Origin: an uncultured Clostridia bacterium
GTDB lineage: Bacteria > Bacillota > Clostridia > Christensenellales > Borkfalkiaceae
Assembly: GCA_947631925.1 (NCBI GenBank)
Contig: CANRNE010000002.1
Location: forward strand, 62,001 to 126,000
Reading direction: 5' to 3'
Length of the DNA: 64,000 bases
The notes beneath the pieces were generated by a model. That model saw nothing but the letters and a program-made list of their open reading frames with translations, had not been told where the DNA came from and ran no database searches. Within the stretch, counting starts at the first letter, position 1. Every line of letters begins with the position of its first letter. Position numbers and translations under genes: made by a program. Below are positions 24,494-27,757 of the stretch, one piece after another.

Positions 24494-24656
24494 TACTTTG
24501 GACGCAACTTGAAAAAAATTTTCGTAATTTCGGGCAAAAAGGACCCCGCGACGGGGCTGCATAAAGTACGGGGGAATTGTCAATCATACTCCGCGGGACA
24601 AGAGCGCGGGAGGTCTACATACAATGATAGCGGAGACAATTGCCAAGGAGAAAGCG

Positions 24657-25007
24657 ATGACGGTCAAGCGCGGAGAACTGTATTATGCCGACCTCTCCCC
24701 CGTCGTGGGGAGCGAACAGGGCGGGGTGCGCCCCGTGCTCGTCGTGCAGAATGACACGGGGAACAAGTACTCCCCCACCGTGATTGCCGCCGCCGTGACG
24801 AGCAAGATTCACAAGGCGAGACTTCCCACCCATATCGAACTTCCGCATGCCTTCGGCCTGCAGCGGGACTCCGTCATTTTGCTCGAGCAAATCCGAACCA
24901 TCGACAAAAAACGCCTGATGGCGCGTATCGGCGAACTTCCGCCCGCCACGATGAGCAAAGTCGACCGCGCCATCCTCATCAGCCTCGGCTTCACCCCCCT
25001 TCCCTGA
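24657..25007 (+). CDS. mazF: MazF/PemK-type mRNA interferase toxin
   Basis: A 116-residue protein of the MazF (EndoA/PemK) family, sequence-specific ribonucleases that cut mRNA. Family features are [11 protein letters not shown] at 5-15, the [16 protein letters not shown] strand-loop at 18-33 with the conserved R25, and the AAAVTSK segment near 44-50. The ATG at 24657 has AAGGAG seven bases upstream; the frame starting at 24624 has no ribosome site. No MazE-like antitoxin frame is seen before or after it. In Clostridia the antitoxin is normally just upstream, so this copy is solitary, or its antitoxin is elsewhere. Confidence 0.9.
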
Positions 25008-25013
25008 CACCGC

Positions 25014-25160
25014 TTTGTCATTTCGACCAAGCCGCGTGCCGCCCACTTTGTCATTTCGGCCAAGCCGCGTGCCGCCCACTTTGTCATTTCGACCAAGCCG
25101 CGTGCCGCCCACTTTGTCATTCCGACCAAGCGAACGCAGTGAGCGCGTGGAGAAATCTCG
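25014..25160. repeat. 33-base tandem repeat after mazF
   Basis: Three full 33-base units (25014-25046, 25047-25079, 25080-25112) and a partial fourth that runs into a GAGAAATCTC-ended element. Each unit holds GTCATTTCGACCAAGCCGCG or a one-base variant. The same TCATT-CGA and GAGAAATCTC ends occur at 1930, 17155 and 58070. Confidence 0.85.
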
Positions 25161-25224: not shown

Positions 25225-27396
25225 TTACCAGATTTCCGGTGAGCCGTCCGCCCCGTAATGCCAGCCCTTTCCGCCGTCCGCCGCGTCCGTCAGATAGTAG
25301 ACGGTGACGCCCGAAGGCACGGAGGCGTTGGTAAATTCGGCATTGAGCGCGTCCCAATCCTCCTGCGTCCCCTCGAAAAACGCCGTTTGCAGCGCGGAAT
25401 TGGAGAAGGCGTTGGAAAATTTCACGAGATCTTTCCCGAGCACGACGCTCTCGAGCATACTGTTCGAAAACGCGCTCTGCCCGATTCTTTTGACCCCTTT
25501 CCCCACGACGGCCGACGTTACGGGCGCGCCGCAAAAGGCATAGGCGCCAATCTCTTCCACGCCCTCGATGACAATCTTCTCGGGCAGGGCAAGACCCGCG
25601 CAGTACAGCGTCGCCTGCGGCTCCGAGCCCGTGTTGAAGACGGTCGCATAGTTGTTGCCGAAGGTGATTGCCGCATACTCGGAGACAGTGCCCGCATAGT
25701 ATGCTTCTTTGAGCGCATCGCAGGAGACAAACGCCCCGCCTCCCACCGTCTTGAGGCTCTTGGGAAGGTGCACCGTCGTCAGCGCGGAGCAGGATTTGAA
25801 GGCGCCCTCGCCAATCTCGGTGACCCCCTCTTCGAGCGTGACCTCTGCAAGGTCGGCGCAGTTCGAACAGGCAGATTCGCCGAGAACGACGCCTGCGGGA
25901 ACGGTGAGGCTCGTAAAGCCGCACGCCGCAAGCGCAGAATCGCGCACCGTGTAGGCGCTTCCGTGATAGTCGGCGGGCAGGACGAGCGCGCTCGCTTCGC
26001 CGAAATAGGCAATCAGCTGTCCCGCCTTTGTCTGCCAGACGAAGCCGTCCGCGTCGGGCTCCGAGACGACGCTCGCCTCCGACTGCGTGCGGACAACGAC
26101 GTCCGCTGCAAGTCCGTACAGGTTGCCGTCTCCGAAGTCATCCTTCTGCGTGACGTCGATTCCCGAGAGGTTGCAGACCTCTGCGAGGCGGTTGCACCCC
26201 TTGAACGCCTGACGGATGAAGTCGCCCGCGAGCGTCGTCAGCGTAGAGGGAAGCGTCACGGCGGTGACATACTTGTGGTCGAGGAAGAGAGCCTTGTTGG
26301 ACCCAATCTCCGTCACGCCCTCACACACGTCTACCTTTCCCTTATAGGCGTAAGGAACGAGCACGAGCTGCGTCTTTGCCTTGTTGTAGAGAACGCCGTC
26401 CGCGGACGCATAGACCGCGTTCTCGCCGCTCACTTCGATGCGTTCGAGATGTTCCATCGGGAACGTATCCCACACGATCGGCTGCGTGAACGCCTTCCCG
26501 AAGGAGACCGTGCGCAGATTTTCCGTCGTATAAAAGGCATAGCTTCCGAGCTCGGTGACGCCGTCGCCGAAGGAAGCGGACGTGAGCGCGGGGCAATCCT
26601 GAAAGACCTGTGCCCCGAAATTCTCCACTCCCTCCACGGAGAGCGAGCGCATGGACGTGCACCGATAGAAGGCATAGTCGCCCAACGTCTCGAGCGAGCC
26701 GAGCGTGGCGCTCAAGAGCCCCGTGCAGCCGTAGAAGGCGCCCTTTGCCACCGTCGTGACGGACTGCATCTCGATGTTCGCGAGCCCGACACAGCCGTAA
26801 AAGGCGTATTCGCCAATCGTCTTTACCGATTCCGCGAGAAAGACGCTTTGGAGCGTCTCGTCTCCGTCCCCGTCGTCGGCGTAGAAGGCGTTGTCCGCGA
26901 TTGCAATCACGGGCCGCTCCGCATGCGTTTCGGGCACGACGAGCATGTGCCTGTCCGTCACGCTATCGTCCCAGCCTGTCACGGCGTATCCGACGACCGT
27001 GCTCCCGTCCTCGCCGAGCACCTCTTCATAGGTGAGCTCCGAAGGCGTGAGCGTATACCCGCAGACCGAACAGGCGCCGCGGGATATGATATGCGCCCCC
27101 TCTTCGTTCCGTGCGCCGCACCCGCGTTCGCAGACATGGTAGTGGACGGTCTCGTCCCAAGTCCAAGCCTTGCTCCATGCGTGCCCGAGCGCGGGGACCG
27201 TCTCCCTCTCGACATGGGTGGGGTCTGTCTTGCAGACCCGCTCGCGCGAGCCGTCCGCCGTGCAGGTGGGAGCAGTCTCGCTCCACTCCCCCCAATCGTG
27301 GACATGCCCCCCGGGCACGGCCTCCACGTCCGCACAACCCGCTCCCAAGAGGAGCACCGCCGCAACCGTTGCGGCAAGCCAAGTGTGTTTCTTCAT
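25225..27396 (-). CDS. BspA-like leucine-rich-repeat surface lipoprotein
   Basis: A 723-residue predicted lipoprotein. The N-terminal signal (lysines, then a hydrophobic stretch) ends at a lipobox-like LGAGC, with the acylated cysteine at 21. Next comes a histidine- and cysteine-rich segment (about 30-115) with CxxC pairs, then many BspA-type repeats of the form (N/S)-x-AF-x-x-C-x-x-L (about 165-340, 400-430, 500-690). Such proteins are surface adhesins or ligand binders in gut and oral bacteria; no ligand can be named. The ATG at 27394-27396 is seven bases after GGAGG. Transcription appears controlled by two operators (27412-27432 and 27443-27463) shared with the divergent XRE regulator. Confidence 0.88.
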   Translation of the reverse strand: MKKHTWLAATVAAVLLLGAGCADVEAVPGGHVHDWGEWSETAPTCTADGSRERVCKTDPTHVERETVPALGHAWSKAWTWDETVHYHVCERGCGARNEEGAHIISRGACSVCGYTLTPSELTYEEVLGEDGSTVVGYAVTGWDDSVTDRHMLVVPETHAERPVIAIADNAFYADDGDGDETLQSVFLAESVKTIGEYAFYGCVGLANIEMQSVTTVAKGAFYGCTGLLSATLGSLETLGDYAFYRCTSMRSLSVEGVENFGAQVFQDCPALTSASFGDGVTELGSYAFYTTENLRTVSFGKAFTQPIVWDTFPMEHLERIEVSGENAVYASADGVLYNKAKTQLVLVPYAYKGKVDVCEGVTEIGSNKALFLDHKYVTAVTLPSTLTTLAGDFIRQAFKGCNRLAEVCNLSGIDVTQKDDFGDGNLYGLAADVVVRTQSEASVVSEPDADGFVWQTKAGQLIAYFGEASALVLPADYHGSAYTVRDSALAACGFTSLTVPAGVVLGESACSNCADLAEVTLEEGVTEIGEGAFKSCSALTTVHLPKSLKTVGGGAFVSCDALKEAYYAGTVSEYAAITFGNNYATVFNTGSEPQATLYCAGLALPEKIVIEGVEEIGAYAFCGAPVTSAVVGKGVKRIGQSAFSNSMLESVVLGKDLVKFSNAFSNSALQTAFFEGTQEDWDALNAEFTNASVPSGVTVYYLTDAADGGKGWHYGADGSPEIW

Positions 27397-27411
27397 CACA
27401 TTACCTCCATT

Positions 27412-27432
27412 GATATACAGTTAGTGTATATC
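27412..27432. promoter_or_regulatory. Operator 1 between lipoprotein and XRE genes
   Basis: Perfect inverted repeat GATATACA-N5-TGTATATC. It lies in the predicted 5' leader of the lipoprotein mRNA. It shares the core TATACA-N5-TGTATA with operator 2, centre to centre 31 bases, or about three helical turns. Confidence 0.75.
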
Positions 27433-27442
27433 CTTTTCTCAT

Positions 27443-27463
27443 ATTATACAGATAATGTATAAT
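27443..27463. promoter_or_regulatory. Operator 2, overlapping both promoters
   Basis: Perfect inverted repeat ATTATACA-N5-TGTATAAT. Its left arm contains the -10 box of the lipoprotein promoter on the minus strand, and its right arm contains a TATAAT that could be the -10 of the XRE gene on the plus strand. A bound dimer would block both. Confidence 0.78.
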
Positions 27464-27471
27464 GAAGTCAA
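27443..27471 (-). promoter_or_regulatory. Promoter of the BspA-like lipoprotein gene
   Basis: TTGACT (27466-27471, minus), 17-base spacer, TATAAT (27443-27448). The -10 and spacer are covered by operator 2. Confidence 0.8.
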
Positions 27472-27492: not shown

Positions 27493-27708
27493 ATGGAAAT
27501 CAAGGAAGAATTCGGGAAACGTCTGCTTGCGCGGCGCAAGGAACTTCATTTGACGCAAAAGGAGGTCGCCGCGGCGCTCGGCGTCGCGCAACCCGTCTAT
27601 CAACGGTTCGAAAAGGGAATTTTTGAATGCAATTATGCCCAGATTGCCGCGCTCTGCCGCCTCTATGACGTCTCGGCGGACTATCTGCTCGGCATCGCGG
27701 AATATTGA
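27493..27708 (+). CDS. XRE (Cro/CI) family transcriptional regulator
   Basis: A 71-residue DNA-binding protein consisting almost only of the Cro/CI helix-turn-helix: LTQKEVAAALGVAQPVYQRF near 20-39, with the typical EKG turn after it and a C-terminal YDVSADYLLGI. It has no sensor domain, so it may respond through protein level or another partner. It is divergent from the lipoprotein gene, and the two palindromes between them are the obvious binding sites. I infer autoregulation and repression of the lipoprotein. A terminator follows at 27731. Confidence 0.88.
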   Translation: MEIKEEFGKRLLARRKELHLTQKEVAAALGVAQPVYQRFEKGIFECNYAQIAALCRLYDVSADYLLGIAEY

Positions 27709-27730
27709 CCCCATTCCCAAAAAACACACA

Positions 27731-27757
27731 AAAAACCGCACCTGTGTGCGGTTTTTT
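27731..27757. terminator. Terminator between the XRE gene and pnp (convergent)
   Basis: An 11-base stem (AAAAACCGCAC with its complement, 27731-27741 and 27746-27756) and CTGT loop. T-rich on the plus strand and A-rich at the other end, so it can serve both directions. Confidence 0.9.

Follow-up and report, generated by a model that had tools for sequence, protein, structure and literature searches.

The divergent gene pair and the sequence between its genes

The locus under study lies in a 64-kb stretch of forward-strand DNA from an uncultured Clostridia bacterium, which is referred to as the window, and consists of two divergently oriented single genes. On the plus strand, a 71-aa XRE/HTH_3 regulator is encoded at 27493..27708, with its ATG at 27493 and a match to HTH_3 (PF01381) of 43.6 bits, over the cut-off of 23. 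The AlphaFold model of the regulator (pLDDT 95.4) has a five-helix Cro/CI fold with helices at residues 3-17, 22-29, 33-40, 48-58, and 62-65, and the protein carries no sensor domain. Foldseek ranked C.BclI first for this model, with P22 c2 and ImmR near the top. Based on knowledge of the HTH_3 family, we take residues 33-40 to be the recognition helix (QPVYQRFE, codons at 27589..27612, plus strand). The regulator gene stands alone and is followed by a terminator-like hairpin at 27730..27757, scored on the minus strand, and by the convergent pnp. The hairpin appears near-symmetric and perhaps terminates transcription from both directions.

The divergent gene, here called the cargo, occupies 25225..27396 on the minus strand and encodes a protein of 723 aa that carries BspA-type LRR_5 repeats (PF13306, 176.8 bits, over the cut-off) in addition to an export signal at its N-terminus. 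Its start is more likely the ATG at 27396 than the GTG at 27399. A preliminary description of the locus had called this protein a lipoprotein; its lipobox, LGAGC, departs from the consensus that the counterpart in G002 follows (SLAGC), which makes the term likely and not certain. The cargo gene ends opposite a convergent PemK/MazF-type toxin gene (24624-25007, PF02452, 121.5 bits). A short tandem repeat at 25015-25130 lies between them, the plus-strand translation of which reads SFRPSRVPPTL three times.

Two palindromes are found within the 96 bp that separate the start codons of the two genes. With their flanks, the putative operators have arms of 8+8 bp and are assigned to neither strand: O1 at 27443..27463 reads ATTATACA-N5-TGTATAAT, and O2 at 27412..27432 reads GATATACA-N5-TGTATATC. 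Their core palindromes, TATACAGATAATGTATA at 27445-27461 in O1 and TATACAGTTAGTGTATA at 27414-27430 in O2, are both exact copies of TATACA-N5-TGTATA and start 31 bp apart, just as the preliminary description had claimed. With up to two mismatches allowed, three matches occurred in the window against 0.13 expected in shuffled sequences, and none of 100 shuffles reached three. The genome search that had been suggested for defining the regulon was also run. O1 and O2 are the sole exact copies in the genome of the bacterium itself (1.92 Mb, 75 contigs), and one further place was found at one mismatch (G000:C37:6754-6770), the reversed-pattern control likewise giving one.

The promoter of the LRR gene, TTGACT-17-TATAAT, matches the consensus at 11 of 12 positions and lies on the minus strand at 27443..27471 (read 27471-27443), so that O1 overlies the -10 together with the greater part of the spacer. 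A weaker promoter-like site directed toward the regulator, TTCTCA-16-TATAAT (10 of 12 positions), lies on the plus strand at 27436..27463, and its TATAAT forms the other edge of O1. Promoter scoring thus upheld both overlaps that had been proposed for O1. The start point of the LRR gene was inferred at about 27436, which places O2 at about +7 to +23, between the start point and the RBS GGAGG (27404..27408, minus strand), and therefore in the divergent leader, where it had been located before. A promoter of the form TTGA(C/T)N-N16..18-TATA(A/C)T was present in most orthologous loci by regular expression. On reading the orthologous regions, no conserved -35 was seen for the regulator's own promoter, and such an element was rejected.

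The regulator and its operators in related genomes

Two scans were run for the operator pair across genomes. In the genus, 103 genomes were searched without a protein reference for ATACA-N5-TGTAT occurring twice, 29-33 bp apart. Fifteen genomes matched with one site each, the reversed-pattern control gave 0, and all 15 sites adjoin an XRE gene whose product is 64-100% identical to that of the window. The same pair at 28-32 bp was searched in 396 genomes of the order, with 13 genus genomes shared between the scans, and was found in 15 genomes, 12 of them new and three already seen in the genus (control 0); all 12 new sites adjoin an XRE with 56-72% identity. Combined, 27 of 27 distinct sites occurred beside an XRE of 56-100% identity, which supports an association of the regulator with the operator pair.

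The regulator clade, limited at E <= 1.6e-37 with the next match at 1.6e-25, was found in 18 of the 103 genus genomes. The exact pair occurred in 15 of these 18 and in 0 of the 85 genomes without the clade (Fisher p = 2e-15, a value that overstates independence among related genomes), and in the remaining three (G008, G099, and G100) either one or both sites of the pair deviate by a single mismatch. In the 18 genomes, KATACA-N5-TGTATM gave 31 sites (control 1), 29 of which lie at the cassette of regulator, operators, and divergent promoter. The regulon is thus essentially one locus, and a global regulon was rejected.

A total of 49 orthologous loci were read, comprising 45 of the named records (uncultured Clostridia MAGs, Candidatus Borkfalkia, Candidatus Protoclostridium, and Christensenella sp.), the window, and three further loci; many of the 45 come from the genomes of the blind scans, and the two sets of counts overlap accordingly. 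The pair was carried with at most one mismatch per site by 45 of the 49 loci. The regulator is present in L140 and L151, with no pair detected within 160-170 bp, and L153 has degenerate copies only, with two mismatches each. No pair was found within 170 bp in L145; L196, which encodes the same protein, has one about 320 bp upstream. Overall, the comparison ties the operator pair to the regulator. Purifying selection acts on the latter, with dN/dS of 0.01-0.16 in 11 pairs, pairs with G122 included. The predicted recognition helix is near-invariant in the orthologues and different in paralogues that have other operators.

Among the 45 orthologous loci with the pair, the two sites are spaced by 31 bp in 28, 30 bp in six, 32 bp in five, and 28 bp in six. 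The 28-bp spacing belongs to one subclade and turns the sites by about 100 degrees relative to 31 bp. Since these six loci lose the same helical face, a tight same-face contact cannot be needed in all loci. Of the same-face spacing of three turns that had been suggested earlier, the approximate three turns are kept in many homologues, while strict phasing as a universal rule was rejected by the subclade.

The facing gene is far less constant. An RBS-preceded ORF starting 72-128 bp away faces the regulator in 31 of the 49 loci, and none was found within 135 bp in the other 18. The 31 facing ORFs fall into 13 BLAST clusters, the largest of which (n = 11) is of the LRR_5 type. An N-terminal export signal or another predicted membrane segment was found in 28 of the 31 facing proteins, counted with simple hydropathy window averages and not with a trained predictor.

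The same pemK stands beside the cassette in nine of the 17 other genus genomes (G002, G003, G019, G024, G099, G110, G111, G122, and G125), seven of which have smc-rnc-plsX before the cassette and eight pnp or hemZ beyond it. At this syntenic locus, the facing gene encodes an LRR protein in G024, G110, G111, and G125, a truncated relative in G002, a 315-325-aa lipoprotein without LRR match in G003 and G099, a 92-aa protein in G019, and a 50-aa remnant in G122. The relatives in the named records are almost all metagenome-assembled genomes, and truncated (G002, G122) or missing cargo could partly reflect assembly error. Seven of the 17 genomes have no window neighbour gene besides the cassette in the stretch that was read, although in one of them the cargo itself also found a weak LRR counterpart; G008 is represented by a 4-kb contig only. 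The -35 and -10 of the divergent promoter are lost in G113 and G100, where both operators are kept, and G093 and G106 hold orphan cassettes with operators and no facing gene. This distribution indicates that the cargo is exchanged at one fixed locus while the regulator and operators persist. The surface protein, which the preliminary description had made the target of the switch, is not its fixed partner, being replaced or lost at the syntenic locus while the switch stays, and a regulator-plus-cargo pair conserved together was rejected for this reason. In G122 (L097, 5380-6371), only a remnant with the signal peptide is left of the cargo, and a further small XRE-like ORF lies in the gap along with a 147-aa ORF on the other strand.

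Probable repression by the regulator and alternative readings

We favour, with a probability of about 0.78, a reading in which the XRE protein acts locally to repress its own gene and, bound as two dimers, silences the divergent gene as well. One dimer of the 71-aa protein would bind O1 and another O2. The dimer at O1 would block RNA polymerase at the strong divergent promoter and at the weak promoter of the regulator, and as occupancy of O1 would block the regulator's own promoter, the regulator is proposed to limit itself. The second dimer, at O2, would either touch the first over the 31 bp (about three turns) and so make repression stronger, or act as a roadblock. Repression would be relieved by a signal, the protein itself having no sensor domain. 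The regulated gene would be a changeable cargo, usually exported or membrane-bound, and the constant unit would be the regulator with its operator pair. The position of the pair, which is placed to block the divergent promoter and overlaps the regulator's own -10, fits this arrangement. Binding of the protein to the sites, its repressive effect, the contact between dimers, and relief by a signal are what we infer from the sequence, and an on/off switch in the bistable sense, as the wording of the preliminary description could imply, is conjecture. As G113 and G100 keep both operators with a dead divergent promoter, O2 is not kept only for repression of the cargo, and control of the regulator itself is probably a further role of the operator pair.

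The same two genomes, together with the orphan cassettes in which O2 is kept (G093 and G106), also speak for a two-way switch like those of restriction-modification (R-M) controllers and lambda CI, in which the dimer at O2 would activate the regulator promoter and filling of O1 would shut both promoters, so that the response would have a threshold or be bistable. The regulator promoter, with its good -10 and poor -35, fits such a switch, and because this -35 is poor and unconserved, expression of the regulator could need activation. C.Csp231I binds sites of the same 5-N5-5 form, which are separated by a gap of 18 bp, and the length of its spacer is critical (PMC4321490). However, the spacing shifts to 28, 30, and 32 bp in the orthologues, and G113 and G100 may stem from a single event. 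The centre of O2 lies about -48 from the inferred start of the regulator, which is not a usual position for contact by an activator. We therefore consider activation from O2 possible but doubtful. The cassette might also be a mobile or selfish unit in its own right, perhaps left over from the immunity switch of a phage or conjugative element, with the facing genes being chance neighbours. The seven genomes without window neighbours, the 18 loci without a facing gene, and the presence of ICEBs1 ImmR and P22 c2 among the closest solved relatives by sequence and fold are consistent with this, but the locus is syntenic in nine of 17 genomes, an informal reading of the surroundings showed no integrase and no genes of an element, and the 28 of 31 facing genes that look exported or membrane-bound are unlike chance neighbours. 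A mobile origin thus appears unlikely.

Two readings that take the palindromes away from the regulator fare worse. O2 could act as an RNA hairpin instead of as DNA, given that the leader of 41 nt has a folding energy of -7.4 kcal/mol (z = -2.0). Yet the stem consists largely of A-U pairs, an equally good fold was reached by 7 of 200 shuffles, and the half-sites and 5-bp gap are shared by O1, which is not part of the transcript. An RNA role is therefore very improbable. That a different, wider-acting regulator binds the palindromes is scarcely credible, as 29 of the 31 sites lie at this locus and both blind scans placed the pair exclusively next to this XRE.

The known systems closest to this cassette of a putative autorepressor with two operators appear to be C.Csp231I and the small protein CylR2. 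Controllers of the C.Csp231I/EcoO109I type are likewise small XRE proteins with two 15-bp 5-N5-5 operators upstream of their own gene (PMC4321490, PMC3115060), and paired palindromic operators in this position were found here as well. The gap is 18 bp in C.Csp231I, or 33 bp centre to centre, compared with 16 and 31 bp here (PMC4321490). Its spacer matters by length and not by sequence for the second dimer (PMC4321490; PMC3115060), and a bent tetramer has been proposed (PMC4321490), which by analogy may be a good model for the 31 bp found here. The half-sites differ, with ATACA/TGTAT here and GACT/AGTC or CTAAG/CTTAG in the controller proteins that the same source describes (PMC4321490). The regulator of the window has 71 aa and lacks long C-terminal helices, in contrast to 98 aa in the C.Csp231I type, and its operators, unlike theirs, lie in a divergent promoter with an exchangeable facing gene. 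No R-M genes were recognised by reading among the large ORFs at 22-34 kb, the neighbours being the LRR gene, pemK, and pnp. Membership in the R-M controllers was rejected on the lack of R-M genes and the other half-site.

CylR2 of Enterococcus faecalis resembles the regulator as an HTH repressor at divergent overlapping promoters that represses an operon for a secreted product, but is encoded together with CylR1, a predicted membrane protein (PMC3709268), whereas the regulator gene here is alone. CylR2 was absent from the PDB sequence matches of the regulator at E <= 0.001, and membership was rejected on this and on the lack of a membrane partner in the regulator's operon. The Pseudomonas XRE-cupin proteins are also local repressors of an adjacent gene with palindromic sites; they carry a cupin sensor domain and are reported to be conserved together with their targets, in contrast to the swapped target here (PMC7901475). 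ImmR (ICEBs1) and P22 c2 are the closest solved relatives by sequence (7t8i, the DNA-binding domain only, 2.1e-9) and are immunity repressors of mobile elements, whereas no such element was noticed here. A type II toxin-antitoxin antitoxin was rejected because the regulator gene is single without a co-transcribed toxin gene; its MqsA match is below the cut-off, and the PemK gene at 24624 lies beyond the LRR gene. By the features tested, the cassette belongs to none of the R-M controllers, CylR2, and toxin-antitoxin systems, and it appears to work like them. No paper on this cassette was found in the open-licence PMC literature.

Paralogous loci with other half-sites

Paralogous XRE loci with 38-53% identity were picked by protein similarity (42 loci, a selection from the rows of the match tables). 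A pair with the same half-site at 31 bp was found in 21 of the 42, compared with 0.01 expected from resampled sequences. Pairs at 28, 29, 30, and 32 bp occurred in 3, 2, 5, and 1 loci, respectively, where one locus may count at several distances. The half-sites themselves vary: ACATCA occurs with the helix MTQQQYSRFENG, ATAGCA with QPSYIRYENG, and TATAAC, in three sites, with LQPSYARYESG, and CTACCA, GGAACA, and TACTAA were further half-sites. A spacing that stays constant while the half-site varies points to protein-protein geometry. In the bacterium's own genome, 18 other HTH_3 proteins were scanned (of 24 others listed), and no such pair was found at 29-32 bp, so that the pair is a feature of an XRE subgroup and not of XRE proteins generally.

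The comparisons extend the first reading of the locus in two respects: the facing gene is not constant, and the 31-bp spacing recurs in paralogues with different half-sites. Tentatively, one branch of these gut Clostridia could use the cassette as a standard expression head with a fixed place on the chromosome, behind which surface and membrane genes are traded among species, with strong purifying selection on the regulator and operators. Its paralogues, with mutually orthogonal half-sites and one 31-bp grammar, could form private repression channels for envelope proteins. If so, uncultured gut Clostridia would exchange their surface proteins at the species level by way of a promoter head that is fixed and limits itself, and a search for this head would reveal the facing gene of any genome. 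Natural pairs of regulator and half-site in one geometry are also available in the paralogues, as a direct dataset on how helix 3 of XRE proteins determines specificity and perhaps as small orthogonal repressors.

Some paralogous loci depart from the simple arrangement. One subgroup (L040, L041, L157, and L158) has three TATAAC/GTTATA sites, the first two of which are 22-24 bp apart. In L046 and L178, the palindromes lie between two small HTH-like genes in facing orientation, which may regulate each other. In L183 (G054), an XRE gene with an ATAGCA pair at 31 bp faces a 430-aa ORF that resembles a DNA methyltransferase; if it is one, the same spacing grammar would here serve a genuine system of the R-M controller kind.
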